From NCBI GenBank assembly GCA_002731275.1, contig PCBK01000169.1:1-43245 (forward strand): DNA of 43,245 nucleotides, in the 5' to 3' direction. The notes beneath the pieces were generated by a model, which saw nothing but the letters and a program-made list of their open reading frames with translations, did no database searches and was not told the origin of the DNA. Position 1 is the stretch's first letter. Every line of letters starts with the position of its first letter. Of this stretch, positions 5,753-39,135 are shown in pieces. This DNA is from Deltaproteobacteria bacterium (GTDB taxonomy: Bacteria; Myxococcota_C; UBA6777). The translations under genes and the position numbers were made by a program.

Positions 5753-8638
5753 CTAAGCGAACAACCTCTCCCTAACACTCTCCGGTGCATCCGATCTCTT
5801 GAGTAATTGCTCCATAAACTCTTTCTCTTCCTGCCCCCAACTCACTGCACGAAATCCCTCAAGCACACTCCAGATTCGATGTGTGTCATGTCCAGCTTCG
5901 CACAACCACACAGCTGACAACAACAATTGCAATACACGCCGATACGCAGTCCCTCCCCAAAGCGCAATCCTGATCACCTGATCAACATCACCATCCACTG
6001 CAAATTGGTACAATCTCCTTCGGCTCGTTTCGACGGAATCACTCATCATCTGATGAGCACGGAGACTCAAGTGGAAAGTCCGCGCAAATTGGTTCCACAC
6101 ATCACCTGGTTCTCTTTCGGGATCCGGCAAGAAAGCCGTGAAAGAGAGCGAAAAGTCATCCCATACAAGATCCATCCTCTGGAAAGCATCAAATTTACGA
6201 GCAATGAACTCGTCATTCGCAAAGAGTTCCCACAACTCTTGCCTGTATCCCTCTCTTTCAAGAAGTGTCAGTCCTTCGTGCTTTGACAACGCAGCGAGAT
6301 GATACACCCGAAAACGAAGATCATATAGATCCTTATCAAGGGCTTTGGAGTGACAAAATTGATACAACGGTAAATGGAGCTGTAATGCCTCGTCTCTTGG
6401 GTGAAATCGTTTTCGAACATACTCTCGAAAGCGACTGTGAAACAGCCTGTACATATCACCACTGAATACCAACAACTTATTGATAGACGCACGTCTTTCA
6501 GCGACTTCATCCGGCGTCATTCCCCGCTCACCGTGTGACAATCGTGTAAAGACCTTGGCAAACATGTCGTCGCTCCCTTGCTCTGGCATGACGGACAACA
6601 TCCCAAGTAAACGATGAAGAAAGTAATCATGTTTCACAGATAACTGATTCCAAAACTGATCAAACAACGCCGTGAGACTTTGTGGAACAGTCTCAGGCCT
6701 AACAGGATCAACATCTCCGTCTTCGAGACGATCGGAGATAAAGCGCAACACAAAGGGGTCGGCAAAATCATCTTCGTGGCTTTGTGTCGCAGTCTTCCAG
6801 ATGGCCTCCAACGTCTCCTTGGGGATCGACTCACGACCTGTCACCTGAAGGAGCATCTCCTCCATCTCACCCCACGAAAGTCCCGACAATGGATCACACC
6901 CTTCAAGCACCGTCACTTTCGTTTCGTCATACGGAAGTTGCTCCGCTACAAGCTCGTTCAACCCATCCCGATCAACCCTGTAGCTCACGAGAATCTGCAT
7001 ATTGGATGGCAACATTTGCGCATCTGGCAACACAGAAGGAATCGAAGTCCCCCCTGCCGAACTCATCCCTTCGTCGAGCGCGTCGACAATCAGTATGACT
7101 CTCTGCCCCTCCTTCAACTCTGCAATACGCTTCAATCGCTCAGAAAACATACGCTCAAGCAAATCAATACTCGTTGGGTACTCCTTTGTCTCGCCCTCCA
7201 AAAAGGAATCGATCTGTGCAAGAACAGAACGCAAAAACACGACAGGATGGTCTCGACCATCGACATTTGCGCAAAAATGCCACACAGGGAACACCCCCTC
7301 AGGCCATTCTTCATCTCTCTGGAATCGATCGTAAAACCATGCAAGAAGCGCTGTTTTTCCCATACCACCAAGAGCTTTCATCACACCGACAGGCCGCTTC
7401 GGTGATGCCAAAAACGATGCAATCGCTTGTAATTGCAGTGTGCGGCCAACAAATCGCTCAAGATGAAAGGATGCAATCCCCGAAAAATCAAGCTGCGCAT
7501 GTTGAGGCAGCTTGGTGACAGGGATCTCACGTAAAAATGACAAAAATTGTTGATATGGGAAGTGCAACTGTCTGTGATCTTGACTGCGTGCATACCGATA
7601 CGAGATAAATTCGAGATGCTCGTTGTCCCAACCATTCAAAAAGAAGACCTCATTGAGATCCTGAACATCCCCTTCATGTTCATGCACTTCGAGATAGTGA
7701 AGTAGCGGACCAAGCGGGAACACATGGGAATCTTCACCTCTCCTTATACAAACAGGAGCTTTGTATTCCAACAAGTGGTGTATCTTTTTGTGCAGTCGGA
7801 ACAATCCATCCTGATCGAGAAAGACAGGACTACCTCCAGTACAATCCACCCCAAACTCATCTTGCACATAGACAATCTGCCATCCCTCCAGAAAATGAAT
7901 CGATTGGTAAAGAGCTTCAACTTTCTTGGCCGCTTGTGCGATCTCTTCCTCTGAAAATGAGTGCGTTCCATGTAATAGCTGATTGCGAAATTGTACGAGC
8001 TCCTGAAACAACACCGTCATCGACAACCCCTTGCGATTGCCAGGGAAAGGACGACGCTTTTTGAGGAGCCCCTTTAACTCTCCCAAAAACACAGCATCTT
8101 CATACCCTCCACACTCCCCGACCAACAAATCAATGAGCCCTTTCCACGTCCCATCAGCAGGCGTGCGAAGGCTCTCAACGACCTCTTGATTGACTCGTGC
8201 ATCTGGTGCTTCCAGCACATACACATACTCACAAATACACATCGCAGAGAGTACACGCAGCGCCAACCCATTCAAGGAAGCTACGAGGTAAGGAAAGTTC
8301 GAGGAACCATAGCCTTTTTGGTACTTCTCAAACTCAAGCACAAACTCACGCAATTTATACCCCAATGGATAGGGTAACGTCGCCGACAGCTCGCGCAAGT
8401 TGATCTCCTCTTCAACCCGCTTCTTCTTTTTCTTCTTGAACCTGGACCAAAATTGCCCAAGCAACGCACCAGGATGCCCTTTCAAAGAGCCTCGGTCCAT
8501 TACTTCTTTGAACAATACTTGGCATCGCTCACTGATGAGACCTCTATCACAATCAGGCTGGCTTGCCAGTTTACATAATTCTTGATAGGTTGCTTTCTCA
8601 GAAGCTTCGAATGATTCGACCAACGCATCCAGTTTCAT
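5753..8638 (-). CDS. HEPN-like plus STAND-type P-loop NTPase (candidate defence or signalling ATPase)
   Basis: The 961-residue protein has an N-terminal helical region (about 85-250) resembling Swt1/HEPN-type modules: PYPLGYKLREF, then DGTWKGLIDLL, then VQFRNQLLHG, whose R218 and H223 form the Rx4H motif of HEPN ribonucleases. A linker domain follows (about 255-390, with PLGPLLHYLEV and LEFISYRYA). The NTPase begins at FVGRTLQLQ. Its Walker A is ALGGMGKTALL (422-432, K428), Walker B is VILIVDALDE (514-523), and ILVSYRVD (549-556) is a likely sensor region. LFHSRFREYV resembles the winged-helix part of STAND proteins. The last 200 residues show no repeats I recognise. STAND proteins act as ligand-triggered oligomerising switches, and many are antiphage. 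It is the last gene of an apparent operon after rsgA and a repeat lipoprotein, 61 bp downstream of the latter. The ribosome-binding site is weak. The target and trigger are unknown. Confidence 0.75.
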   Translation of the reverse strand: MKLDALVESFEASEKATYQELCKLASQPDCDRGLISERCQVLFKEVMDRGSLKGHPGALLGQFWSRFKKKKKKRVEEEINLRELSATLPYPLGYKLREFVLEFEKYQKGYGSSNFPYLVASLNGLALRVLSAMCICEYVYVLEAPDARVNQEVVESLRTPADGTWKGLIDLLVGECGGYEDAVFLGELKGLLKKRRPFPGNRKGLSMTVLFQELVQFRNQLLHGTHSFSEEEIAQAAKKVEALYQSIHFLEGWQIVYVQDEFGVDCTGGSPVFLDQDGLFRLHKKIHHLLEYKAPVCIRRGEDSHVFPLGPLLHYLEVHEHEGDVQDLNEVFFLNGWDNEHLEFISYRYARSQDHRQLHFPYQQFLSFLREIPVTKLPQHAQLDFSGIASFHLERFVGRTLQLQAIASFLASPKRPVGVMKALGGMGKTALLAWFYDRFQRDEEWPEGVFPVWHFCANVDGRDHPVVFLRSVLAQIDSFLEGETKEYPTSIDLLERMFSERLKRIAELKEGQRVILIVDALDEGMSSAGGTSIPSVLPDAQMLPSNMQILVSYRVDRDGLNELVAEQLPYDETKVTVLEGCDPLSGLSWGEMEEMLLQVTGRESIPKETLEAIWKTATQSHEDDFADPFVLRFISDRLEDGDVDPVRPETVPQSLTALFDQFWNQLSVKHDYFLHRLLGMLSVMPEQGSDDMFAKVFTRLSHGERGMTPDEVAERRASINKLLVFSGDMYRLFHSRFREYVRKRFHPRDEALQLHLPLYQFCHSKALDKDLYDLRFRVYHLAALSKHEGLTLLEREGYRQELWELFANDEFIARKFDAFQRMDLVWDDFSLSFTAFLPDPEREPGDVWNQFARTFHLSLRAHQMMSDSVETSRRRLYQFAVDGDVDQVIRIALWGGTAYRRVLQLLLSAVWLCEAGHDTHRIWSVLEGFRAVSWGQEEKEFMEQLLKRSDAPESVRERLFA

Positions 8639-8699: not shown

Positions 8700-11600
8700 T
8701 CACTTCAACAGAGGATCTGCTGAAGTCAATGTTCTCGTATTGCCAGCAACATCGGACAATTCGACACGGGAGACCTTCCAGTCACCGACAGTCGAAGTCG
8801 CCGGAATCCTCAAGATTCCTTCAAATCGTTTTGTCGCAGGATTGTAGGACAAAGAAGCCCACATCAAGTCTGCAGCCCCCGGTCCTTTGAGTTGAATGGA
8901 GGCTTGTGAAACACCTGAGTCATTATCGGAGATCTCAGCGTACACCCTGACCTGCTCTCCAGCCCGAGCCTGTGCAGGGAACACCATCAGTTGTGTCATC
9001 ACAGGAGCGTCTGTATCAGGTTGCGTCGTCGCACCACGTACAGTCACCTGGAGCCCCTTCACAAGGCTATCCGAATCGCTTAGTTGCACTTGATTTCCGG
9101 CACGGTCACTGGCCGTTGCAGACGCCCCTTTCCACACACCATTTTCAGAGTACTTGCCAATCGTGCCTTCCCCTTCCCATTTGTTTGTCGCAGGATTGTA
9201 TTTCAAATTCGCAAACATACGATGTTTTTGCGAAGGAGATACGAGCAACACAGACACAGAGGCCACACCACTCCCAACATCGGACACCTCTGCGTACAAG
9301 CGAACAGAGTCTCCTGCAAGAACAGTCCCCTGTCCTCTCTTCAATGAGGCAAACACCGGCGCTTTTGTATCCGTTGAAGGTGTCCCACCGCTCACCTCCA
9401 GAGGCGCATCGAGCATCTCCGAACCAACAGCGCCCAGCTGGTATACAGATTGGTTCCGTGCCTTATCCAACACCTCGGCGCTTTGGATTTTCCAGCTGCC
9501 ATTTTCTGCATCAACAGCAAAAGAGACCGACGCCTCCCACCTCTTTGTCGCTGAATTATACGACAATTCAACTGAACGATACTGCCCAGAGGGCGAAGAG
9601 AGCGCAACAGAGAGGCTCCCAACACCATCCCCTTTATCTGTCGCCTCAGCCTGCAGGAAAATGGACTTTCCTGCGATCACCTTCGCGGCAGGCAACCACT
9701 TAAGTGACACCAACGAAGGAGCCTCATTATCACCAGGAGGTACAGGCGCACCCTGGAGTATTTTAAGTGATATCTGCTTGCTCAATTTGCGAGTAAGGAT
9801 CGCACTTATATCAAGAGGTTGAAGTGTTAACAGATCATTCTCACGGATACTTGAACTGTTTCCTGCTGCGTCACCGAATTGGCAGCGCGCGACACTCCAC
9901 CCGCCAGTGAAACTTTGTGAGGGGACCTTGTAATTTCCTTCAAACAATTGAGACACAGGGTTGTACTGAAGGACCGCCGAACCATACGAAGCATACTCAC
10001 CTTCAGAGAGAGGCGGTTTCAACGCACAAAATGCCTCCGTGATCCCAATGTTATCGTCGGCCTTTGCGTACACCCTGATCGATTGACCGGCATCAACCTT
10101 CCGCGGAAAGAGATTCACAAGTCCATGTGTTGGGGCTGTTGTGTCGGATGGGGCAGGCGTTGGGTTCACCTGAAAACCTCGGTGTTCCGTCGCAAGAGAG
10201 GTAACATGGGAGATCTGCAAAGCAGGCAGCGCCCCTATCGCCAGCGAATCGGACTTGCCTTCGTTTCCGGCTTTATCTTGGTACGCACATGAGGATAGCA
10301 ACCACTGACCACCAGCTGCGTCTGTTGGCAAGACCACTTCCCCCTCCCACAAAGACGTCGCCGGATTGAAGGCAAGATCAACATCAACGCTCCCCCTCAC
10401 GGCACCAACAACATGTTCAGCCTTGACCTCACAGCTGACCTTTGAGACACCACTCCCCACATCTTCGACACCGACAAACAGCCGCAATGACTCGCCAGCG
10501 TCCACAGTATCAGCCGAGAAATGTGTACCTTTCATCACAGGAGGAGTGGTCTCTGAAGGCCCACCTTGTTTGCTATTCAAGACAACAACAAACGGATCCT
10601 GAGAAGCCTGACTTGTCGCGCTTGCAATATTTAGGGCCGGAAGTGTCGCAAGGACCGAAGAGGGCATTGAATTGGAGAGACCCGCCTTGTCCTGCAAGTA
10701 GCAACCAGAGACCCACCATTCACCGGCAGGATCAGTGTCAGAGAAGTGAAGATTTCCTTCGTAAAAACCTGTATCCGTGTTGTACTGGAGAGATGTGCTC
10801 TTTTTGGCATTCGGCGTTGGTCCCTGGAAGCTACATGAAGCAAATTGGATACCACTCCCGCCAGGATCTTCGAGTCTTGTGTACACTCGCACCATCTTCC
10901 CAGCGTCGACTTTTCCAGGGGCAAGGTGAAAACCTTTCACCACAGGACGTTCACGATCAAGTCCTTGTCCTTGTGTCACCATAAAATGAAGATGTTCTTT
11001 CCAGGTCTCTCGTTCTTGTTGTGTCAGGTAGGGTACATTTTGAAGGTTTTTACCATCGATTTGAAGTGTATTTCCACTTGCATCTCGAAACGATAGGGAT
11101 TGGAGAGACCACACACCACCTCGACTATAAAGTGGGATCTTTGACACTCCCTCCCAAAGACCACGAGCTGGATTGTGCCAAAGGTTGAAGTACAAGCGAC
11201 CTGCACCAAACGCATCGTTGATCACAGCCTGCCCCCACACAACACCAGAGTCAGCGTCAGAGACCTTCACAAGCAACCTGACCACTTCACCATCCGCAAC
11301 CTCTCCAGGCGCCAACCACGCAGCGTGAAGCTGGGGTGGAACTTTATCAGTCCCAGGATTCGGTGGTGTCGTTGTCCCTTTTTCGACATCGAAGGTCTTA
11401 TTTTGAAGCAAGGGATCCGAAGCCCCGACACTGATAGTATTCTCAGCAACATCAGCAAGATCAACAGATTGAATCGACCAGGACTCGGTCCCTGCATAAT
11501 TGGGAATCGTGATCATAGCTTCATATCGCTGGTGAATCGTGTGGTAAAACGCATCTCCTTGTGCAGAGACACCGCTGGCTGACGCCAATTGAATGGTGAC

Positions 11601-26331: not shown

Positions 26332-29300
26332 ATGAAACACACCATACGTCTCTTATTGAGTATGTTGTTTATCGCGCTACTCGGCAGCCCCATTATCATC
26401 TCCTGTGATAGTGGAAAACAGTTTGTCCGAGGTGCCGAAATCAAAGACCGCAGCGCGCTGATCGGTGGCCCAATGGCCCTCGGTAAGATCGGCGACTTCC
26501 TGCTTGAGAACACGCGCATCCGTTCGGTCATCTCAAAACACGGCATCTCCAGCGCATTTGGGATGTACGGTGGAAATCTCGTAGACGCCGACAGAGTTCG
26601 AGGCGGACTCGGCACAGGAAGCAGCCAGGGTGGCCAAGGCTTTGACAGCCTAGTCGAGATGTTCCCCATCTTCTTCCTCGCCGCGGTCGACACCAAAACC
26701 TCCGAGTTGGTCTGTAATGGTCAAAATGATTGCCAGGGCTACGAAGGCAAACCAGCCGTCGTACGAGTCACAGGGAGTGGCGCTTCCTTTATCGGACTGA
26801 CCGAACAAATCAACGACCTTTTGCTCTTTATGAACGGCGCCAACAGGCTGGGATTCGTCCTCGACTACGTCTTACGACCGGGTAAAAACTACGTCGAGCT
26901 CAACGTCACCATCCGCAACGAAGAGGACACAAAGTACCTCTACCAAACCTTTGGCGCGGTTCCCTCTGTTGCAGGTATGATCGGCCTCTTTGGAAAGCGC
27001 AACAAGGTCTTTATCCCAGGTATCGCAGGCTACAATATCCGCTTCTCAATCGAGCATATCTTCGGCAGTGACGCCAAACTCAAAGCACCAGCCATCCCCG
27101 GTCTCGTCGCTGACTTTATCGGCAGCCGCGGTAAAAATGGCGTCTCCTATGGACTCGTCGCCGAACCCTCAAACGACAACTACGTCTACAAATACAAAGA
27201 TGAGTTCGCAAAACTCGACGGCAATGTCCCCATCCACGAAGGTAGTATCCTCGTCCCCCTCGAAGGTAGCTCCATCACAGCCTGCTTTAGCAAGTCCGCG
27301 CCAACCAAGCTCAACCCCAAAGGCGAAGAAGGCAGCACATTCTCCTACAAATTTTATATCGTGATCGGCGATGGTAGCGTCTCCTCCATCAGAGATGCAC
27401 AGCTTGAGATCCACAAACGCCCCAAAGGCCTCGTCTCCGGACAGGTCTTTGAGCAGGACACAGAGGCCACGATCAGCCACGCAAAAGTCGTCGCATACAC
27501 GCGCAATGGAGAAGGAAGCACCCCAGGAAAGCGGGTCATGTACACGGAGTTTGTCACAGATGAGCACGGACGCTTCACGGGCTATATGGAGCCAGGAACT
27601 TACTACCTCCTCGCTCGAAATAACCGACTGACAAGTGAAGAGATCAAGATCATCGTAGAGAAAGACAAAAAACACTTCCAAAAGATCTCCGTCCCCCGCC
27701 CTGGACGGGTCTTGTTCACTGTCCGAGACAGCAAAGGTAACCTGATCCCTGCGAAAGTCACCGCGCTCGCAACAGTCGGCGACTTCGAGAATGGAAAGTG
27801 CACCAAGCAACACCCCGTCTACTGCATGTACGACCCCGCCATCGGTGCTCCCGAAGTCAACACCGACTTTCGCGTTGGACTGACCTGTGAAGACGGTGCC
27901 AAGTGCAACGGACACGTCAACTGCAAGGGAAATGGCGACGAAAAATGTCTCTACAGAATGGCGACAACGACGGAATTCCGAGAAGATTTCTTCGTCTCCA
28001 ACAACGGTCGCGGTGAGCTGCACTTGAGAGCTCTTTCGCCAGGTCGTTCCTACAAACTCGTCGCCTCCAGAGGTATTGAGTACGAAACGGACACCAAAGA
28101 GATCAAGATCAAACCAGGTGAGCTGAAAATCGTCGAATTCAGGCTCATCCACTCCGTCCCAACAAAGGAGATGATCTCCGCAGACTTGCACGTCCACACC
28201 AACCTGAGTCACGACTCGGCGATTTCCGATCGTGATCGTGTCACCTCCTTCGCCGCAGAAGGTGTCGATTTCTTCGTCACCACAGATCACAACCGCATCA
28301 GGGATATGCAACCTGTCGTCGAGGTCCTCGGACTTGAACGATGGCTCAAAACGATGATCGGCATCGAGCTTACGACCTTCGACATGGGTCACTTCAACGC
28401 CTTTCCACTGCGTCTTGATCTCCTGAAGTTTAACGGTGGTGCCCCCAGTTGGTTTAGGCAGGACGGTGCAGATGCACGCTACACAAGCAACGAAGCCTTC
28501 CCGCCAGGTGAAAAAGATAGACCCCTCGAAGGCTTACGGAAAGGCATCACGCCGACAGAGATGTTTAACTCGATGCGCAAGCTCGGAAAAATCTCACCAG
28601 AACAAACGATCATCCAGATCAACCACCCAAGGGACTCGATCTTCGGATATTTTAATACATACAACCTCTCTGGTGATACGTCGCTTCCGGTGTATACGTC
28701 CGGTCTGACATCCCCCAACTTGCGCACGTATGACATCGATAAATACGATAACTCTTTTGACGCGATCGAAGTCTACAACGGCAAGCGGCTTGATCTGATC
28801 TGGCACTGGCGTATCCCACCGGGGATCACCGTGCCCAGTGGATATGGTGGAAAAGTTGGCACGATCATTCGTACGGAGAATGAAGGACGTGGCAACGTCG
28901 CAGTCCCCGGTGGAGGGAGTGACTGGTTCAACATGCTGAACCTTGGATACACTTACACAGCGACCGCAAACTCCGACACACACGACCTCGGTCACGAAGC
29001 AGGAGTACCAAGAAACTACCTGTTAACAGGGTTCGATCATCCCCAAAAACTGACCAACGCTGCATTGGTTGATATCATCCGTAAAAATAAACTCTTTTTG
29101 ACAAACGGACCGATTCTTTACCTGACCGCAGGGACATCAGCAGACGGTCCATTCTCCACAAACATCGGTGAAACACTCAAGGTCGCGCAGGGCAAAGTGT
29201 ACTTCAACCTGAAGGTGTTGGCTGCGTCATGGGTCGATGTCTCCGAGATCATCGTCTATAAAAACGGTCGCGTCGTCCGAACGATCGCGGTAGATGAGAC

Positions 29301-30249
29301 GACGGACATCGAGCGTTTCAACAAAACACTCCCATTTGACGTCGACGCAGACGCCTGGTTTGTTTTCACAGTCAAAGGGAAGAAGGACCTGTGGCCTGTG
29401 TTCAGAGCCGATGAGATCGAACCTTTCCAGATTGGTCAGGCCGTCTCCTTGATCCAGGAGACCCTGCTCGCCAATCTCCCCATCTCCATTTCGTTTAGCG
29501 ATTCAGCTTGTTTGCTCCCGGCGCTCGCCCAAGGGATTCGCCCCTACGCGATCACAAACCCCATTTGGGTCGATGTTGACGGTGATGGGAAATACACACC
29601 CAACGCGTGTAAAACATTTGGAGAGCGTGGTGTCCGCTGCTATCCCAAAAACGCGTCCTGCTCCAAAGGCCTCTGCGTCGAGAAGAAAACCCCCGCTTGC
29701 ACCGAAGACAAAGATTGTGGGAACCTCGGACAATGTGTCGACGGAGGCTGTGTTGTTGACCCCTGTAAAGGGATCACCTGTGCGAAAGCCTTTTTGGCCT
29801 GTGACAACACCAAACCATGTCCAAATGATCAATGCGCTGCAGATGCCAAAACCTGTTCAGATGGGACCTCTTGCAAAGCGGACAGCGATTGTACAGGCAA
29901 AGGCGACGGGCTATGCAGATATTGCGCTTGCCCCCCCGCTCGCAAAGCATGTAAAGGAGATGGTGCACCGTGTAACGCCGACAGCGATTGTGGCAAAAAT
30001 GGCAAGTGCGAGACCGCAAGATACTGCTTCCCAACATCTTGTGCGCTCGGGTATTGTGAGCCCACCTTCCCTGTTTGTAGCGAAGATCAGGTGCAAAAAA
30101 GCAATCACCTCTTCCTTCGTACAGGAAAAACCAACAAACTGGAGACGCTACTCAAAGAGCACTCCCCCAACCAAAAAATCGAACCTGTTGATAAATACAC
30201 CATCAACAAAGTGAAGTCGTACTTTTTGTACTTTGACCACAAGCACTGA
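26332..30249 (+). CDS. Giant lipoprotein with carboxypeptidase-regulatory-like and PHP metallohydrolase (CehA-like) domains and Cys-rich tail
   Basis: The 1305-residue product starts with a lipoprotein signal (SPIIISC, Cys25). Residues about 26-360 form a beta-rich domain I do not recognise. About 367-610 contain carboxypeptidase-regulatory-like/Ig-like segments (GLVSGQVFEQD, GRFTGYMEPGTYYLLAR). A PHP-type metallohydrolase follows: ADLHVHTNLSHDS (about 616-628), FFVTTDHNRI (about 648), GIELTTF, QINHPR (about 762) and NSDTHDLGHE (about 881), giving the His/Asp/Glu metal ligands seen in CehA/McbA-type hydrolases. FLTNGPIL closes the domain. About 1099-1245 is Cys-rich with C-x-x-D-x-D-C units. 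It follows the porin gene by 23 bp. Substrate unknown; an extracytoplasmic phosphoesterase or esterase is inferred. Confidence 0.75.
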   Translation: MKHTIRLLLSMLFIALLGSPIIISCDSGKQFVRGAEIKDRSALIGGPMALGKIGDFLLENTRIRSVISKHGISSAFGMYGGNLVDADRVRGGLGTGSSQGGQGFDSLVEMFPIFFLAAVDTKTSELVCNGQNDCQGYEGKPAVVRVTGSGASFIGLTEQINDLLLFMNGANRLGFVLDYVLRPGKNYVELNVTIRNEEDTKYLYQTFGAVPSVAGMIGLFGKRNKVFIPGIAGYNIRFSIEHIFGSDAKLKAPAIPGLVADFIGSRGKNGVSYGLVAEPSNDNYVYKYKDEFAKLDGNVPIHEGSILVPLEGSSITACFSKSAPTKLNPKGEEGSTFSYKFYIVIGDGSVSSIRDAQLEIHKRPKGLVSGQVFEQDTEATISHAKVVAYTRNGEGSTPGKRVMYTEFVTDEHGRFTGYMEPGTYYLLARNNRLTSEEIKIIVEKDKKHFQKISVPRPGRVLFTVRDSKGNLIPAKVTALATVGDFENGKCTKQHPVYCMYDPAIGAPEVNTDFRVGLTCEDGAKCNGHVNCKGNGDEKCLYRMATTTEFREDFFVSNNGRGELHLRALSPGRSYKLVASRGIEYETDTKEIKIKPGELKIVEFRLIHSVPTKEMISADLHVHTNLSHDSAISDRDRVTSFAAEGVDFFVTTDHNRIRDMQPVVEVLGLERWLKTMIGIELTTFDMGHFNAFPLRLDLLKFNGGAPSWFRQDGADARYTSNEAFPPGEKDRPLEGLRKGITPTEMFNSMRKLGKISPEQTIIQINHPRDSIFGYFNTYNLSGDTSLPVYTSGLTSPNLRTYDIDKYDNSFDAIEVYNGKRLDLIWHWRIPPGITVPSGYGGKVGTIIRTENEGRGNVAVPGGGSDWFNMLNLGYTYTATANSDTHDLGHEAGVPRNYLLTGFDHPQKLTNAALVDIIRKNKLFLTNGPILYLTAGTSADGPFSTNIGETLKVAQGKVYFNLKVLAASWVDVSEIIVYKNGRVVRTIAVDETTDIERFNKTLPFDVDADAWFVFTVKGKKDLWPVFRADEIEPFQIGQAVSLIQETLLANLPISISFSDSACLLPALAQGIRPYAITNPIWVDVDGDGKYTPNACKTFGERGVRCYPKNASCSKGLCVEKKTPACTEDKDCGNLGQCVDGGCVVDPCKGITCAKAFLACDNTKPCPNDQCAADAKTCSDGTSCKADSDCTGKGDGLCRYCACPPARKACKGDGAPCNADSDCGKNGKCETARYCFPTSCALGYCEPTFPVCSEDQVQKSNHLFLRTGKTNKLETLLKEHSPNQKIEPVDKYTINKVKSYFLYFDHKH

Positions 30250-30453: not shown

Positions 30454-33132
30454 ATGGCAAGGACGTCGATAGGCGCATCTTTGGTTCAACAAGGATACAT
30501 TAAAATAGGACAGCTCCAGTCTGCCAAGCAATTGCAGCAGCGTCACGGCGGACGTCTAGGCGAAATTTTGATCGGGATGGGTGCGCTCACGGAAGATCAA
30601 TTCCAGCGCTTCCTTGCAAACCGTTATCAATTCGGATATTTCGACTCAGATCAGCTCCTGACGCTCAACATCAAAGACGACCTCCTCGATGTCTTCTCCT
30701 ACGAAAAAGCGCTCAATCAGCTCGCGCTCCCCGTCAAAAAAGGCTCCAACGGTGGTGTCCTAGAAGTCATCACACTCGCCCCCCTCTCAGACGAAGTTGT
30801 GGACTCGCTCCTCCAACTTACACAGCAAAAGAAAATCCAATACCACCTCGCGACAAGACACAACTTGTTGCAGGCCATCCGTTATCATTACGGCCAATTT
30901 TTGCGCCGGACTGCAGATAATGAACCCTTCCCAGGACTCTCCGAAGACGACGCTCTCGAACTATCGAGCGAAGGGTTACAGAAGAAAAAGAAATCATCTC
31001 ACAGCCTGATCGCCTTACGCAGAGAAGGTTTTTGCCCCTCTTGTGGGTTTCCCTACGATCCCGGCTCCGCTTTTTGCCCCAAATGTGGACAGGCCCTCAA
31101 TAAAGAAGGCGATCCGCTCCTCGGACAAATCCTCGAAAATAAATTCCAACTCGTCAAACAAATTGGCGAAGGTGGAATGGGCCTGATCTACGAAGGTGTC
31201 CAACTCGATACCAACCAACCTGTCGCGCTCAAATTGCTCCGCAACCAGTTTAAGGTCGATGAACAAGCTGTACAGCGATTCTCCAATGAAGTTGAGATCC
31301 TGCGCAGACTTGACCACCCTAATATCCTTCAGGTACACGAGTTTGTCTACGAAGAACGAACTGGCTTCGTCCTCGTCATGGAGCTGCTCGAAGGTTGCAA
31401 CCTCGAAGAGTATATCGACGCACATCAGGAAGTTCTCAGTAACGAACAACTCGCGATGATCTTCTCCAAAGTGTGTGATGGTATGGAACACGCACACCAG
31501 ATGGGCATCATCCACAGAGATCTCAAACCTGAGAACATCTTCCTTGTCGGTGGCCCAAGCCATATCGAGGAGATCAAGCTCCTCGACTTTGGTGTCGCCA
31601 AAATGACAGAGAGCGCAACACAAGGCCTCACACAAGCCGGTATTATCCTCGGGACACCCCGGTACTTCTCGCCCGAACAGGCGATGAGCCGACCGATCGA
31701 TTATCGCTCTGACATCTACTCTCTTGGGGTCATCTTCTTTGAGATCCTCACACGCACAGAGCTCTTCCAGGCCGAAAACCCATACGAATATTTGATGCGC
31801 CACGTCTACACGGCACCGACGCCGATCACGGTGGCCCGCCCTGACCTCACATTCCCCCAAGGTCTCGAAAGCTTTTTGCTCAAAAGCCTCGACAAAAACC
31901 CGGACAATCGCCCCACCTCCATGAGGGCATTCAAAAATATTCTGCTGAGTATTTTCGACGATGGCTCTGAGTTCTTTAAGGAAATCATCACCATCCCAAG
32001 CTCCCATCAATCGAGTGAGTTTGACTCCCCCCCCACATTGCTCGATGCGCAAGAACAACAACCCAACACACCATCCCCTATAAGTTCTTCTTACGCAGAC
32101 AATGCTGCGGCTAAGTCGCTCAGTACACAGCAATACACTCCCGACTACGATCTTGATGATGATGATTCTCCCACTCGACTTGATTTCTTTTTGCAAGAAC
32201 AAGAAGACTTCTCAAGTGAGTTGACAGACGATCAATTCGATGACGAAGATGATTCTCCCACAATGCTCGACATGTGGGCCGAACCCAAAGCCTCTGCGGC
32301 CGCATCAACACCCAGTATCGAGCCTCCTCCCCCCACAGCGCTCGATCCGTTTATTGGCACTCCCGAAGACTTGAGTGACCCACCACCCCAATCCTCTGCC
32401 CCAAAACCCATGCTTACAGCAGAGGAAGTTGAGGAGCGATTGGAGAGGCTCAAAAAACAGGTCCCCACATCTCGCCCTCCCGCCTCGAATCCACCACCAA
32501 TCCGAAATACACCGCCAAGCCGTGCAACGGGAAGTTATGCGCGTCCAGCGTCAGGTTCAAGTGGCTCATCGATTCCCAATTTATCGGCTGTAAAAGCCAT
32601 CCCAACACATCGCTCAGATCCATCGCTGCCCAAAATCACGGGAATTCCCGTCGTCGAGGCAGTCAAAGAACCACCTGTCCCTGTCACAAGCGTCCCTGTA
32701 GGCGAAACGCTCAAAGAGCCTCCAGTCCTGATGGGTAGCCAATTTGAGCAGGCAAACCGCGTCGCGCTCCAACCCAGCCCCGATCGCTCCCCACTGTTGA
32801 CAAGAGCTATCGGCACAGAGAGTACGAAAAAACCGAACAACGCGCGCCCTGTTCATCTTCCACCACAGCCTCCCCCCTCTGCGCGCTCGATCAACAAACC
32901 ACAGATCCGCACCGCGCTCAAAAGCCCACTCGATGCTCCTCAACCCAAAAACAACACCGTTTTGTGGATTGTGCTTTTGTTGATCTTGCTTTTACTGAGT
33001 GGCGCGGGTTTTTACTTCTACACCAATAAACAACCCAAAGCCCAAGAAAAAGAGAGCCTTCACACGCCTCTGAACACACGCTACGCAGAGCGTCCAAAGC
33101 CATCGCCTCCCCACAACCCCTCGACTTGTTGA
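30454..33132 (+). CDS. Ser/Thr kinase with N-terminal T2SSE_N/MshEN domain, zinc ribbon and C-terminal membrane helix
   Basis: The 892-residue protein begins with a complete T2SSE_N (GspE/PilB N-terminal, MshEN) domain at about 5-148, including GGRLGEILIGMGALTEDQF (32-50) and the second half LATRHNLLQAIRYHYG. A zinc ribbon follows (C194, C197, C208, C211). The Hanks-type kinase (about 230-500) is complete: GEGGMG (238-243), K260, HRDLKPEN (D356), DFG (D378), SPEQ. The long P/S/T-rich linker has four PTxLD motifs (T528, T574, T603, T628) in acidic surroundings. One membrane helix (about 835-856) and a short tail end it. MshEN domains in some ATPases bind c-di-GMP; here only the second RLG-type half motif is well kept, so binding is possible but unproved. 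First of three paralogous kinase genes, 9 bp from the next. Confidence 0.85.
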   Translation: MARTSIGASLVQQGYIKIGQLQSAKQLQQRHGGRLGEILIGMGALTEDQFQRFLANRYQFGYFDSDQLLTLNIKDDLLDVFSYEKALNQLALPVKKGSNGGVLEVITLAPLSDEVVDSLLQLTQQKKIQYHLATRHNLLQAIRYHYGQFLRRTADNEPFPGLSEDDALELSSEGLQKKKKSSHSLIALRREGFCPSCGFPYDPGSAFCPKCGQALNKEGDPLLGQILENKFQLVKQIGEGGMGLIYEGVQLDTNQPVALKLLRNQFKVDEQAVQRFSNEVEILRRLDHPNILQVHEFVYEERTGFVLVMELLEGCNLEEYIDAHQEVLSNEQLAMIFSKVCDGMEHAHQMGIIHRDLKPENIFLVGGPSHIEEIKLLDFGVAKMTESATQGLTQAGIILGTPRYFSPEQAMSRPIDYRSDIYSLGVIFFEILTRTELFQAENPYEYLMRHVYTAPTPITVARPDLTFPQGLESFLLKSLDKNPDNRPTSMRAFKNILLSIFDDGSEFFKEIITIPSSHQSSEFDSPPTLLDAQEQQPNTPSPISSSYADNAAAKSLSTQQYTPDYDLDDDDSPTRLDFFLQEQEDFSSELTDDQFDDEDDSPTMLDMWAEPKASAAASTPSIEPPPPTALDPFIGTPEDLSDPPPQSSAPKPMLTAEEVEERLERLKKQVPTSRPPASNPPPIRNTPPSRATGSYARPASGSSGSSIPNLSAVKAIPTHRSDPSLPKITGIPVVEAVKEPPVPVTSVPVGETLKEPPVLMGSQFEQANRVALQPSPDRSPLLTRAIGTESTKKPNNARPVHLPPQPPPSARSINKPQIRTALKSPLDAPQPKNNTVLWIVLLLILLLLSGAGFYFYTNKQPKAQEKESLHTPLNTRYAERPKPSPPHNPSTC

Positions 33133-33141
33133 GGGAAAAGA

Positions 33142-34827
33142 ATGCACCAAGCCGAACACTGCCCTTCATGTCAACAACGAGTCGCTGCAAATCACCCCAT
33201 TTGCCATTCGTGCGGGTATCTGCTCTCCAAACCCGATGATCCCTTTATTGGAACAATCCTCGCGGACAAATGGAAACTGCTACAGCAGCTTGGTGAAGGA
33301 GGGATGGGGCTTATCTACAAAGGCCTGAACACCCAAACGCAAGAAGTCGTCGCGATCAAGCTCCTTCGTACACAACTCAACCTCGACGAAAAAGCCATTC
33401 AGCGCTTCTACCACGAAGCACAACTGATGAATCGAATGCAACACCCCAATATCATTCATCTTCATGAGTTTGGTTTTGAGGAGAAGCTCGGGTTTTATCT
33501 CGCGATGGAGTACCTCGAAGGGTGCAGTCTGGAAGAATACATTGGGACCTTTGGTATCGAACTCTCAAGTGATAAGATCACAGAGTTGTTTGCCCAAGTT
33601 TGCGATGCACTCGAACACACACATAAACAAGATATCATCCACAGGGATATCAAACCGGACAACATTTTTCTCGTCGGTGGTCCCGAAAAATTCGATGACA
33701 TCAGGTTACTCGACTTTGGGATCGCGAAGCTCCAAAAAGAGAACATCACAAAACTCACCCAAACAGGTATGCTGCTCGGAACCCCCCGCTATGTCTCCCC
33801 CGAGCAAGTACTCAACAGACAACTGACCCCTCGCACAGACATCTACTCCCTTGGGATCATTCTCTTTGAATTACTTACAGGTGAAGATCTCTTCGAAGCC
33901 GAATCAGCTTACGAATACCTGATGAGACATGTCAGCGGTACCCGGCGAAGAATCGAGCAAGTCCGTCCTGATAAGACCTTCCCCAAAGGCCTCTCCGAGC
34001 TTGTCGAGCAATCTATCTCTCAAACCCCCGAAGATCGTCCGGCCTCGATGAGAGCATTCCAAGATCAACTGCTCGACATCATGGCGGAGACATACCCTCG
34101 ACTTGTCCGCGACTTACGCCACCGGTTCAAAAAGTATTCGACCACAGGCGCGTATATGCTCAAGGGAGAAGGCGAGGTTCCTCGCTCTGTCGCAACCCCT
34201 TCCCCCAAAGAGATCAAACGATCACAATCATTTCTCGCTGGTGTCGTTAAAAAGAAATCAAAACAAACAGGTGGTCTACAAAAACCTGCCAAGATCAAAA
34301 AGCGAGAGCGGACCTTCGAAGCTGCGCCTTGGACGCTCTGGGAAGATGGCGAACAGGCAACTCCCCCAACAACACCCGCGAGTATGCAACCTGCGCTTCC
34401 AAGGTCTCCATCTCCAGCGGCAGCCAAACAACCACAAAAAAGCCCACAGAAGGTCAACTTTGGGCAAAAAAAACAAGTCCCCCACAGGCCGAGAAAACGT
34501 ATTGGAGGTGCACTTCATACAAGTGTCCTCAAACGTCAACAACGCTGGCAGTGGCTCAAGAGAGGGATCTTTGGAGTGCTCTTGCTTGGTGTGTTGGCCT
34601 TTTCGTGGTTTGCCTACCAACATCAATGGCACAGTCGCTATCTTCTCTTGGGAACACAATACATCGAAGGGCTTATGGCACCGACACCAGAGGCGAAGTC
34701 CATTCGACGCTCAAAGCGAGCATGGAGACGTCTTCGCAGGCTCTCGTTCCGCGCACCGCGCAAGCAAACAAACAAACGACGAAGAAAAAAACGCATCGTT
34801 CGCAAAAGGACACGAAAACGTCGCTAA
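33142..34827 (+). CDS. Ser/Thr kinase with N-terminal zinc ribbon, membrane helix and very basic tail
   Basis: The 561-residue protein is a paralogue of its neighbours without the MshEN domain. It starts directly with a zinc ribbon (C7, C10, C21, C24), then a complete kinase (about 43-312): GEGGMG, K73, HRDIKPDN (D169), DFG (D191), GTPRYVSPEQ. A basic, P/S-rich linker leads to one membrane helix (about 475-491). The C-terminal 70 residues are very Arg/Lys-rich and finish with runs such as RRRKKRIVRKRTRKRR. With a cytoplasmic kinase, one helix would put this tail outside the inner membrane, against the positive-inside rule. GAGGG overlaps the end of the preceding gene, and the 9-bp gap implies cotranscription. 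The tail might bind anionic wall or lipid polymers; that is inference. Confidence 0.85.
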   Translation: MHQAEHCPSCQQRVAANHPICHSCGYLLSKPDDPFIGTILADKWKLLQQLGEGGMGLIYKGLNTQTQEVVAIKLLRTQLNLDEKAIQRFYHEAQLMNRMQHPNIIHLHEFGFEEKLGFYLAMEYLEGCSLEEYIGTFGIELSSDKITELFAQVCDALEHTHKQDIIHRDIKPDNIFLVGGPEKFDDIRLLDFGIAKLQKENITKLTQTGMLLGTPRYVSPEQVLNRQLTPRTDIYSLGIILFELLTGEDLFEAESAYEYLMRHVSGTRRRIEQVRPDKTFPKGLSELVEQSISQTPEDRPASMRAFQDQLLDIMAETYPRLVRDLRHRFKKYSTTGAYMLKGEGEVPRSVATPSPKEIKRSQSFLAGVVKKKSKQTGGLQKPAKIKKRERTFEAAPWTLWEDGEQATPPTTPASMQPALPRSPSPAAAKQPQKSPQKVNFGQKKQVPHRPRKRIGGALHTSVLKRQQRWQWLKRGIFGVLLLGVLAFSWFAYQHQWHSRYLLLGTQYIEGLMAPTPEAKSIRRSKRAWRRLRRLSFRAPRKQTNKRRRKKRIVRKRTRKRR

Positions 34828-34922
34828 ACTTCATGGAAAGTTCGCCGTCTCGTATACACATGGGTACAAAATGTCTGCTTTGCACAATCATCACTTGCTT
34901 CACATAATGAAAGGCACCTGAC

Positions 34923-37268
34923 GTGAAGGGTTCGATCGGTACAATGCTCTTGAACGCAAATGTGATTCTTGAAGAGCATTTACAAAAAGCCAAATCGGTT
35001 CAAGCTGAAAAAGGAGGTCGCCTCGGTGACATTTTGATCGGGATGGGCGCGCTCACGGAAGACCAATTCCAGCGCTTCCTCGCTGAAAACTACAACTTCG
35101 GCTACTACGGACTGTCAAAGCTCATGAGTATGCAGCTCAATGAGAACCTGTTTGATCTGATCCCCTACGACTTGGCCCTCGGCTACTTGATGCTGCCGAT
35201 CGCAAAACACAAGCAAACCCAGACATTGGAGCTCGCGGTCCTCGCGCCACTTCCTGAAAAACTCAACCAACAACTCCTTCACCACACACAGTGCAAACGC
35301 TCCACCTACGCACTCGCGACAAGAGAGAATCTCCAAAAAGCCATTCGATACCACTACGGTAAACGAATGAGGCTCAATCTGCCGAATCCAAAACCAAACG
35401 ATCAAAGAGAGGACTCCAAATACCTTCTCGCGCTACAACGTGGCCTTTGTCCAAGTTGCAGTTTTCCTTGTGATCCTGATCAGGTTGTCTGCCCACAATG
35501 TCAAACGATCATCCACCGCCCCTCCAACGATCCTCTTGTTGGTCGTCGACTTGGAGGAAAGTGGCAGATCCTCAGACAGGTCGGCGAAGGTGGAATGGGT
35601 CTCGTCTACCAAAGTATCCACATCGATACAAAGCAGGACGTCGCGGTCAAATTGCTCCGCACACAATTCAAGGTCGATGATCAAGCTGTCCAACGCTTTT
35701 ATCACGAATCCCAAATCCTTGGAAAACTCGAACACCCCAACATTATCGATGTATATGAGTTTGGCTTTGAGGAGGAGATCGGCTTCTTCCTCGTCATGGA
35801 GCGCCTCGAAGGATGTGATCTCGAACAATTCCTCTCACAGGCGCGCTCAAGACTCCCCCTCCCCAAAATTTACGAGATCTTTATCCAGGTCTGTGATGCC
35901 ATGTACCACGCCCATGAACACGGCGTCATCCACAGAGATCTCAAGCCCGAAAACATCTTCTTGATCGGAGGCCCCGACCACATCTCCGAGATCAAATTGC
36001 TCGACTTCGGGATCGCCAAAATCAAAGAAGACGAAGCCAAACGACTCACCCAAACGGGGATGACTCTCGGAACACCACGTTACCTCTCCCCAGAACAAGC
36101 GATGGGTACACAAATCGATCACCGCACCGATATCTACTCCATCTCCGTAATCTTGTTTGAGGCGTTGACAGGAAAAGATCTCTTTGAAGCGGACAGCCCC
36201 TACCAATACTTGATGCGCCATGTCTACGCGCCGCCACCTGATCTGTGGGACATCAAACCAGAAGACGATTTCCCTGTCCAACTCAACAAATTGATCCAGG
36301 CAGGGCTTGCCAAAAAACCTTCAGACCGCCCCAATTCAATGAAGTTGTACCGCGATCTGTTGCAAAAGATGCTCGATGGCCAGGAGCTCCAACTCGAACA
36401 ATACCTCCCGGAGCCGACTTCGAAAGTCCCACAAACACCACAAGGGATGCAAATCCCACAACATCCTGCACCTTTAGAGCCGGAACAAGATGAACCGTGG
36501 TCAACTGTATGGGATGATATATCCGACATATTCGAATCTACAGAGGATATCCTCGAAGATACTGAGAGTCCCAAGACGCCAAGCAAAGTAGAAAAACTTC
36601 CGGCAGTCAGTCCAGCTTCAGGGATCAGACCCATCGCGTCTTCTGAAACAGCGCCCATGCTTCACCAATCGATCAAACCTTCTGGACTGATCGCTCATCC
36701 ACGAGGCTCTGAACGCGCTGCTCGAAGAATTCATAGTGGGCGTTCAGGCGACAACATCCCCCGTATACGTTCAAACAAAAGCGGCGAGAGTATCCCACGT
36801 GTTGGCGCAGGCCACAGTCGCGAGCAAATACCACTGATCAGGACACCAAGTGTGACCGGGGAGAACATCCCACGCATCCGATCAAGTATGAGTCACGACA
36901 ATATCCCACGCATTCGTTCAAGTATGAGCCATGACAATATCCCACGTGTTGGCGCAGGACACAGTCGCGAGAGTATCCGCCGTATCCAATCAGCACGGCT
37001 TCCAAATCAAGAGACCAACTTCACAGAGTCGAGAAACTCCCGAAGCGCTCTCAAGCAGAGAACAGATCGAGATAAATGGACATACTATCTCCTCTTTGCG
37101 AGTGTGTTGTTGTTGGCTCTTGCGGGTCTTGCGACGTGGCGGATCATGACACCAGAGACGCTCTCTCCCAAGCAGCTCAAACAAGGAGAGGCCTCATGGA
37201 AACAGCTTGGACATGTCACCTTCCAAATCCAAGAGACTACGAATAAAACACCCCCTCCAACCAGGTAA
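34923..37268 (+). CDS. Ser/Thr kinase with N-terminal T2SSE_N/MshEN domain, zinc ribbon, 12-residue repeats and C-terminal membrane helix
   Basis: The 781-residue protein has the same order as the first kinase. T2SSE_N/MshEN spans about 3-146, with GGRLGDILIGMGALTEDQF and LATRENLQKAIRYHYG. The zinc ribbon is C176, C179, C190 and C193, with an extra C183. The kinase (about 213-485) has GEGGMG, K243, HRDLKPEN (D339), DFG (D361) and SPEQ. An acidic linker (about 520-560) precedes seven repeats of 12-13 residues (605-689) of the type S-x-x-S-x-D-N-I-P-R-I-R. One membrane helix (about 720-738) and a short outer tail finish it. Start is GTG at 34923 after AAAGG; its beginning MKGSIGTMLL aligns with MARTSIGASL of the first kinase. 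It lies 95 bp after the second kinase. Confidence 0.85.
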   Translation: MKGSIGTMLLNANVILEEHLQKAKSVQAEKGGRLGDILIGMGALTEDQFQRFLAENYNFGYYGLSKLMSMQLNENLFDLIPYDLALGYLMLPIAKHKQTQTLELAVLAPLPEKLNQQLLHHTQCKRSTYALATRENLQKAIRYHYGKRMRLNLPNPKPNDQREDSKYLLALQRGLCPSCSFPCDPDQVVCPQCQTIIHRPSNDPLVGRRLGGKWQILRQVGEGGMGLVYQSIHIDTKQDVAVKLLRTQFKVDDQAVQRFYHESQILGKLEHPNIIDVYEFGFEEEIGFFLVMERLEGCDLEQFLSQARSRLPLPKIYEIFIQVCDAMYHAHEHGVIHRDLKPENIFLIGGPDHISEIKLLDFGIAKIKEDEAKRLTQTGMTLGTPRYLSPEQAMGTQIDHRTDIYSISVILFEALTGKDLFEADSPYQYLMRHVYAPPPDLWDIKPEDDFPVQLNKLIQAGLAKKPSDRPNSMKLYRDLLQKMLDGQELQLEQYLPEPTSKVPQTPQGMQIPQHPAPLEPEQDEPWSTVWDDISDIFESTEDILEDTESPKTPSKVEKLPAVSPASGIRPIASSETAPMLHQSIKPSGLIAHPRGSERAARRIHSGRSGDNIPRIRSNKSGESIPRVGAGHSREQIPLIRTPSVTGENIPRIRSSMSHDNIPRIRSSMSHDNIPRVGAGHSRESIRRIQSARLPNQETNFTESRNSRSALKQRTDRDKWTYYLLFASVLLLALAGLATWRIMTPETLSPKQLKQGEASWKQLGHVTFQIQETTNKTPPPTR
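36735..36992 (+). repeat. Seven tandem units of about 36 bp encoding basic 12-13-residue repeats
   Basis: In-frame units coding SGRSGDNIPRIR, SNKSGESIPRVG, AGHSREQIPLIR, TPSVTGENIPRIR, SSMSHDNIPRIR, SSMSHDNIPRVG and AGHSRESIRRIQ, all in the third kinase. Units five and six are nearly identical in DNA, pointing to recent duplication. Confidence 0.85.
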
Positions 37269-37475: not shown

Positions 37476-37868
37476 ATGTCCTTTCGATCGCTGACACGAA
37501 CCTGCACGACACTTTTTTTGCTAGCGACAATGTTACTTGTCCTCCCTGGTTGTTCCACTCCTTGCCAAAAGCTCAGTGCGTTGATCTGCACAGAGTTCAA
37601 AGATGAGTCCAAGTTGTGCACCATCGCCAAGCAAGAGAGCACGATGTCCGGTGTTTCGCAAAGCCGCTGTCGTGCTCTGCTCTCCACTTGGAGCTCTATT
37701 GGTCAACTCCAAACGCAATCACTTGGAAAACGCTACCAACGCTATAAAAAGAAAGTGTTGACACGCCTTCCACAAAAAAAAGCGGACAACGAGTTGGATA
37801 AAGCGGAGATTAAACTTCGTAGGACATTCAGGAGATTATACAGGTTGGGGAAGAGCGGGAAGAAGTGA
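37476..37868 (+). CDS. Small hypothetical lipoprotein
   Basis: The 130-residue product has a clear lipoprotein signal (FLLATMLLVLPGC, Cys26). The mature part has four more Cys (STPC, ALIC, KLC, SRC) and then a Lys/Arg-rich helical C-terminus (GKRYQRYKKKVL ... RRTFRRLYRLGK). I do not recognise the family. It converges with recA, with 17 bp between the stops and no obvious terminator. The gap before it (37269-37475) contains no supported gene. Confidence 0.6.
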   Translation: MSFRSLTRTCTTLFLLATMLLVLPGCSTPCQKLSALICTEFKDESKLCTIAKQESTMSGVSQSRCRALLSTWSSIGQLQTQSLGKRYQRYKKKVLTRLPQKKADNELDKAEIKLRRTFRRLYRLGKSGKK

Positions 37869-37885: not shown

Positions 37886-39001
37886 TTACTTTTTGCTTTT
37901 CTTGCGCTTGGACTTGGTCGTTGTTTCTTCGGCCACTTCTTCAGTCGCCTCTTTCTTCGCCGCTTCGTCTTTCGCGCCTTCTTCACCTTCGTGCAGGTGG
38001 GGCAAGTATGTTGCGAGCAGTTTTTGGTAGAGTTCTTCGCGAACTTCGTCGTTTTCGGACAACCAACGACGAGCATTTTCCCGTCCTTGACCGATTCGCT
38101 CGGTGCCGTGTGAGTACCACGCACCACTCTTCTGGATAAATCCTTGATCAACAGACCTGTCGAGAATTTCACCTGTCAATGAGATACCCTCGTTGTACAG
38201 GATGTCGAATTCGGCTTGTTGGAAGGGAGGAGCGACCTTGTTTTTGACGACTTTGACGCGGGTTTGGTTACCCATGACGTTACCACTGCTGGATTTGATG
38301 GCGCCGGTTCTGCGGACATCGAGTCGGACAGAAGCGTAGAATTTGAGTGCGTTACCACCTGTAGTGGTTTCGGGGTTACCGAACATGACACCAATTTTCA
38401 TACGGAGCTGGTTGATGAAGAAGACGGTGGTGTTGGATGTACCAGCGACACCAGCGATCTTACGACATGCCTGACTCATCAAGCGAGCTTGCAAACCAAC
38501 GTGACTGTCTCCCATGTCACCTTCGATTTCGCTTTTGGGAACCAATGCAGCGACGGAGTCGACGACGATCAAGTCGATGGCAGCGGAGCGAATCAAAGTC
38601 TCGACGATTTCGAGAGCTTGCTCACCGTAATCAGGCTGGGAAATCAAGAGAGCATCGGAGTTGACGCCAAGTCGACGAGCATATTTGATGTCAAGAGCGT
38701 GCTCAGCATCGATGAAAGCGCATGTTCCACCTTGCTTTTGAATCTGTGCGATGGCGTGCAGGGCGAGTGTTGTCTTACCACTGGATTCTGGACCGTACAC
38801 TTCGATGATACGGCCACGTGGGTATCCACCTACTCCAAGCGCGACATCCAAGCCCAATGAGCCAGTGGGAATCGCTGGAATCTGTTGGATGGAGTCTTCA
38901 TACTCACCCAACTTCATGATGGAACCTTTACCGAATTGTTTTTCGATGTTGCTGATTGCGGCGTCAAGGGCGGATTTCTTATCTGATACAGCTTTGCGCA
39001 T
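37886..39001 (-). CDS. recA: Recombinase RecA
   Basis: RecA forms ATP-dependent filaments on single-stranded DNA for homologous recombination and SOS induction. All blocks are present: [22 protein letters not shown], Walker [85 protein letters not shown] and GQGREN. The C-terminus is Glu-rich, then Lys-rich. ATG at 39001 (371 aa) is chosen because GGAGG sits 8 bases before it; an upstream in-frame ATG at 39028 lacks such a site and would place the ribosome-binding site inside the gene. The 550-bp upstream region is unusually structured (see 39136-39544). Confidence 0.97.
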
Positions 39002-39135
39002 TGGAATGTCCTCCGTTTTCAAATTCATTTGTTGTTTCGTTCACGTAAATCACCCTACCCGCTCTGCACGTCATATCATGACACAGAACATACCACATTG
39101 TTTAAAAAGGACTTTTTTCATCCAAAAGTCATACC

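Follow-up and report, generated by a model that had tools for sequence, protein, structure and literature searches.

Three adjacent kinase genes next to recA

The window, i.e. the whole stretch of 43,245 nucleotides analysed here, contains three consecutive plus-strand kinase genes, referred to as K1, K2 and K3, with a gap of 9 bases between the first two. The preferred start of K1 is the ATG at 30454, which is preceded by the ribosome-binding-like AGGAAAG. K1 and K3 have in common the domain order MshEN, CxxC/CxxC zinc ribbon, Hanks kinase, long linker and one membrane helix, while K2 has the same layout without MshEN. The features of the locus are listed below with their basis in brackets.

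30454..33132, + strand: K1, 892 aa, MshEN, zinc ribbon, Hanks kinase, linker and transmembrane helix (Pfam, motifs)
30466..30627, + strand: K1 MshEN_N four-helix subdomain, residues 5-58 (structure-database match, model)
30466-30537, + strand: K1 half-motif I, SIG..L..K..Q (motif alignment)
30553-30624, + strand: K1 half-motif II, RLG..F..L..R (motif alignment)
30646..30903, + strand: K1 MshEN_C alpha/beta subdomain, residues 65-150 (PF05157 at 70-148, model)
31033..31086, + strand: K1 zinc ribbon CPSC-x10-CPKC, residues 194-211 (Zn_Ribbon_1 26 bits, motif)
31144..31935, + strand: K1 kinase domain (Pfam, motifs)
32944..33027, + strand: K1 membrane helix, residues 831-858 (hydropathy 2.59)
33142..34827, + strand: K2, 561 aa, zinc ribbon, Hanks kinase, linker, transmembrane helix and very basic tail (Pfam, motifs)
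33160..33213, + strand: K2 zinc ribbon CPSC-x10-CHSC, residues 7-24 (motif)
33274..34068, + strand: K2 kinase domain (Pfam)
34923..37268, + strand: K3, 781 aa, GTG start, MshEN, zinc ribbon, Hanks kinase, linker and transmembrane helix (Pfam, motifs)
34932..35093, + strand: K3 MshEN_N subdomain (motif alignment)
34932-35003, + strand: K3 half-motif I, SIG..L..K..Q (motif alignment)
35019-35090, + strand: K3 half-motif II, RLG..F..L..N (motif alignment)
35121..35372, + strand: K3 MshEN_C subdomain (PF05157 36.8 bits)
35448..35501, + strand: K3 zinc ribbon CPSC-x10-CPQC, residues 176-193 (motif)
35565..36350, + strand: K3 kinase domain (Pfam)
37077..37151, + strand: K3 membrane helix, residues 719-743 (hydropathy)
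37476..37868, + strand: small putative lipoprotein, with relatives that adjoin the MshEN kinase at the recA locus of two sister genomes (locus comparison)
37886..39028, - strand: recA, the syntenic anchor (Pfam RecA 461.7 bits; relatives in loci L096 and L097)

The Pkinase profile scores 185, 188 and 168 bits in K1, K2 and K3, respectively, and all three contain the catalytic motifs GEGGMG, VAIK-type lysine, HRD[LI]KP (HRDxKPxN), DFG and SPE. Each kinase domain is preceded by a CxxC-x10-CxxC ribbon, the Pfam ribbon cut-off being passed by K1 only (Zn_Ribbon_1, 26 bits against a cut-off of 25), and each protein has a single C-terminal hydrophobic helix, which is marginal in K2 (hydropathy 1.71). 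These features agree with the earlier note, which had described three adjacent and catalytically complete kinases, each with a zinc ribbon ahead of the kinase and one C-terminal membrane helix, and a full-length T2SSE_N/MshEN domain at the start of the first and third. PF05157 (MshEN) matches K1 with 34.4 bits at residues 70-148 and K3 with 36.8 bits at residues 67-150, above its curated cut-off of 23.1 bits and with a profile that spans chiefly the C-terminal MshEN subdomain, while no MshEN was found in K2 by the same Pfam search. K1 and K3 unite MshEN and a Ser/Thr kinase in one chain, which K2 does not. No match to the T2SSE ATPase domain PF00437 was found in K1, K2 or K3 by Pfam, so they are not extension ATPases of type II secretion or type IV pili. 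The three proteins are predicted to be Hanks Ser/Thr kinases anchored in the inner membrane, with the catalytic half in the cytoplasm. Outside these domains, the K3 linker contains repeated SxDNIPRIRS-like units ahead of the membrane helix (window ~36738-36993), and the C-terminal tail of K2 is strongly enriched in arginine and lysine (window ~34621-34824).

In a sequence search of solved structures, residues 3-64 of K1 match MshE (5HTL; E 1.1e-6) and residues 5-148 match PilF/PilB chains. The AlphaFold model of K1 residues 1-510 gives a confident MshEN fold over residues 1-150 (pLDDT ~95), which compares with c-di-GMP-bound MshE (5HTL) at Z 13.2 and an rmsd of 2.3 A over 137 residues, while its kinase half is poor (block pLDDT ~29-81, three-sequence depth). 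By this model, both the four-helix N-terminal part and the alpha/beta C-terminal part of MshEN are present in K1. The fold is thus that of the N-domain of V. cholerae MshE, PilB and PilF, from which K1 and K3 differ in having a kinase attached in place of the T2SSE ATPase and in their altered pocket residues.

A single MshEN kinase lies beside recA and a relative of the small-lipoprotein gene in two sister genera (G003, contig C22, and G001, contig C780), whereas the window has three kinases at this locus; among the genomes compared, the three-gene cluster occurs in this genome only. The recA-linked relatives (L096 7689-9941 and L097 3014-5389) have no zinc ribbon, reading REGLYTPPG.. where the window has REGFCPSC.., and the ribbon is therefore dispensable for the architecture. 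Such Arg/Lys-rich C-terminal tails are also seen on the recA-linked relatives and on the small lipoprotein-like proteins encoded beside them (L096 ~7692-7800 and ~9998-10564). Directly upstream of K1, the window encodes a putative lipoprotein of 1305 aa (26332-30249) with a PHP-like domain below the cut-off and a Cys-rich C-terminal part. Among those window genes that were scanned, Pfam detected neither a pilus nor a secretion ATPase, as the earlier note had stated for the surroundings of the cluster; a paralogue elsewhere in the genome, however, adjoins pilB.

The c-di-GMP pocket

The residues of MshE in contact with c-di-GMP are R9, L10, G11, L25, L29 and Q32 in the first half-motif and R38, L39, G40, L54, L58 and Q61 in the second, as given in the part of Wang et al. 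2016 (PMC5013675) cited here. The criterion for a c-di-GMP-binding MshEN is two RLG..L..L..Q half-motifs with a five-residue spacer. K1 and K3 keep the spacer and depart from the half-motifs, reading SIG..L..K..Q / RLG..F..L..R and SIG..L..K..Q / RLG..F..L..N, respectively. The changes R9S, L29K, L54F and Q61R/N are common to both proteins and affect both half-sites, while RLG of half-motif II, Gly11, Leu25, Leu39, Leu58 and Gln32 are kept. The degenerate SIG on which doubt about ligand binding had first been based is present, but it is not the sole change, as lysine replaces Leu29, phenylalanine Leu54, and arginine or asparagine Gln61.

According to the same part of PMC5013675, G40I and G11L in MshE abolish stabilisation by the ligand, each single hydrophobic change lowers affinity more than tenfold, changes of Arg9 and Gln32 cost up to about fivefold, and the non-binder XpsE carries L29R; it also reports that imperfect MshEN motifs can still bind, so forecasts from pocket residues are not decisive. 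As both half-sites are changed at two or more contact residues, c-di-GMP binding by the MshEN of K1 and K3, and hence gating, is doubtful. It is likely, judged from the residues, in the recA-linked relatives of the sister genera, where the half-motifs are near canonical (RIG or KIG..L..L..Q / RIG..L..L..Q). The proposal of a membrane-anchored kinase with an MshEN input is retained, whereas the case for a c-di-GMP gate has become weaker for K1 and K3; in these relatives such a gate is plausible. With 28 GGDEF domains encoded in its genome, the bacterium probably makes c-di-GMP.

Kinship and distribution of the MshEN kinases

The genome (G000; 10.75 Mb, 200 contigs) encodes more than 150 kinases and 13 MshEN domains above the cut-off, and seven proteins have the full order of MshEN, zinc ribbon and kinase, namely K1, K3 and those on contigs C24, C80, C189, C136 and C59. 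On contig C23, a zinc-ribbon kinase has an N-terminus that is merely MshEN_N-like and in which Pfam does not recognise MshEN. A kinase-domain tree places the C23 kinase, K2 and all MshEN kinases in one group (support 96/95), apart from the 16 further kinases of G000 and the four of a different phylum that it also contains. K2 is nested among the MshEN kinases, and a second tree is consistent with this. By these sequence comparisons the K1-K3 cluster belongs to one lineage-specific clade of MshEN kinases, which is new. A chance neighbourhood was considered and rejected: although the genome (10.75 Mb) has more than 150 kinases, these three sit within 7 kb, and a single clade holds all of their kinase domains. 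The tree counts changes without direction, and as its deep nodes are weakly supported, the course of events at the recA locus is deduced from synteny; the simplest reading would be one fusion origin in the lineage, followed by loss of MshEN from K2. Judged by eye, a further MshEN protein (G000 C3:319176-319607, L003) combines KFG/RLG half-motifs with an HD-like region and a C-terminus resembling a receiver.

The earlier note had suggested surveying genomes for the same domain order, and further MshEN kinases were found in all four family relatives (G001-G004). G000 and these relatives (genomes of 6.6-10.75 Mb) make up one family of an isolated lineage, beyond which kinship is only at the level of 'same domain'. 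The order was not seen elsewhere: the kinase motif occurs in the matched frame in 0/40 of the GTDB R220 loci closest to the MshEN of K1 and K3, nearly all of which are pilus or secretion ATPases, and 193 genomes from the kinase-rich phylum of G032 (probably Myxococcota) yielded no fusion among the matches listed, with about seven candidates scored per genome, a depth at which divergent fusions may escape. The best matches in that phylum start at the ribbon or the kinase, so its zinc-ribbon kinases resemble K1 and K3 in ribbon and kinase and differ in having no MshEN ahead, among the matches listed. Long MshEN proteins occur in that phylum as well, and in the 20 examined no kinase motif was found.

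Rarity of MshEN kinases outside the family is thus indicated. Such fusions do exist elsewhere, as MshEN-Ser/Thr-kinase fusions, with the same two domains in one protein as in K1 and K3, were already listed in 2016 (Wang et al., PMC5013675, text and Supplementary Table 4). The combination is therefore known, while the lineage-specific expansion and the pocket changes are new; the pocket changes, the pilB neighbourhood and the amplification at the recA locus are not described in the part of that paper cited here.

Role of the MshEN domain

In 5/5 family genomes, one MshEN kinase gene is oriented divergently to ribF-pilB, where the neighbouring PilB itself carries T2SSE and MshEN (profile, G000). 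This neighbourhood is suggestive of a link to type IV pili, although housekeeping genes also lie within the block; the C24, C80, C189, C59 and G002_C71 paralogues share no obvious neighbour. Gly40 is replaced by Ile or Leu in the pilB-neighbouring kinases of 5/5 genomes, which makes c-di-GMP binding by this branch unlikely. Between those of G002 and G004, MshEN_N has dN = 0 and dS = 0.35 (60 codons, one pair), a sign of strict purifying selection that pertains to this branch and not to K1 and K3. As the domain is strictly kept without Gly40, it probably serves protein contact in this branch, which gives indirect support to the contact with secretion machinery raised by the earlier note. Two known proteins offer comparisons. 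The N-domain of Xanthomonas citri PilB is of MshEN-type fold, has no c-di-GMP motif and is kept for protein contact, binding PilZ, but it belongs to an ATPase, not a kinase (PMC8389850). Myxococcus xanthus Pkn1 is a functional analogue: this kinase, which is needed for development, carries a fused domain of c-di-GMP-receptor type that is predicted to be a non-binder, the domain being PilZ and not MshEN (PMC8316039).

The reading preferred here, at a probability of roughly 0.55, is that MshEN is a maintained cytoplasmic input, ancestrally for c-di-GMP, which in K1 and K3 probably serves docking or partner sensing on membrane-anchored kinases. The family would have been born by the joining of a PilB/GspE-type MshEN to a zinc-ribbon kinase, and the ancestral input was probably c-di-GMP, since the recA-linked relatives of the sister genera keep a near-complete site. 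The recA-side kinase would then have been amplified in this genome, MshEN being lost from K2 and the pocket altered, in the direction we infer, in a form common to K1 and K3. Control of the kinase by c-di-GMP through this pocket has most likely been lost, and MshEN probably provides a surface for docking or dimerisation instead, like the non-binding PilB/GspE N-domains, that would bring the kinase to a partner or relay partner binding to the kinase. Of this reading, the computations show the architecture, the common ancestry, the conservation and the residue changes.

K1 and K3 may instead still be gated by c-di-GMP, bound perhaps weakly in the altered pocket and switching the kinase on or off; this is the main alternative, possible but rather unlikely. 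The closeness of the K1 fold to ligand-bound MshE, the RLG and glycine retained in half-motif II together with Gln32, the near-canonical relatives at the same locus, the 28 GGDEF domains and the binding reported for imperfect motifs all speak for it; however, a lysine in the hydrophobic guanine-1 triad is combined with the loss of Arg9, the guanine-2 side has Phe at Leu54 and has lost Gln61, hydrophobic changes are the costlier ones in MshE (more than tenfold, against up to about fivefold for Arg9 and Gln32), and most other kinases of the family have half-motifs more degenerate still. Binding of another dinucleotide or small molecule by a pocket rebuilt around Ser9, a polar residue 29 and an aromatic residue 54 is improbable: Ser9 and polar 29 recur in K1, K3 and the C24 and C80 paralogues, aromatic 54 recurs in K1, K3, C80 and C189, and the MshEN_N identity of K1 and K3 is high, but C24 and C80 have Glu at position 3 (Gly11), which makes a common pocket doubtful, and the pattern could reflect drift in a docking domain. 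That identity also bears on whether MshEN is a decaying, functionless relic, as its complete loss from K2 and the drifted pocket residues would suggest. MshEN_N is 63% identical between K1 and K3, more than the kinase (55%) and the linkers (24-30%; C-linker 24%), and has therefore been maintained; with open reading frames and a confident fold as well, a relic is very improbable.

Beyond the docking or partner-sensing role preferred for K1 and K3, it is proposed only tentatively, as an idea with odds well against it, that this lineage has turned the c-di-GMP receptor MshEN into a kinase input and diversified it over at least seven kinases in one genome, with some members of the lineage still responding to c-di-GMP and others adapted to a new ligand or to the pilus machinery. 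If so, one receptor fold would join second-messenger and Ser/Thr phosphorylation networks; to our knowledge, direct evidence of c-di-GMP control over Ser/Thr kinases is scarce. The recA locus offers a natural test pair, the sister-genus kinases with a near-intact site and K1 and K3 with an altered one, and the pilB-neighbouring branch is a case of strict MshEN conservation in the absence of residues required for c-di-GMP. Taken jointly, this pair and this branch could separate the ligand-sensing role of MshEN from its docking role.
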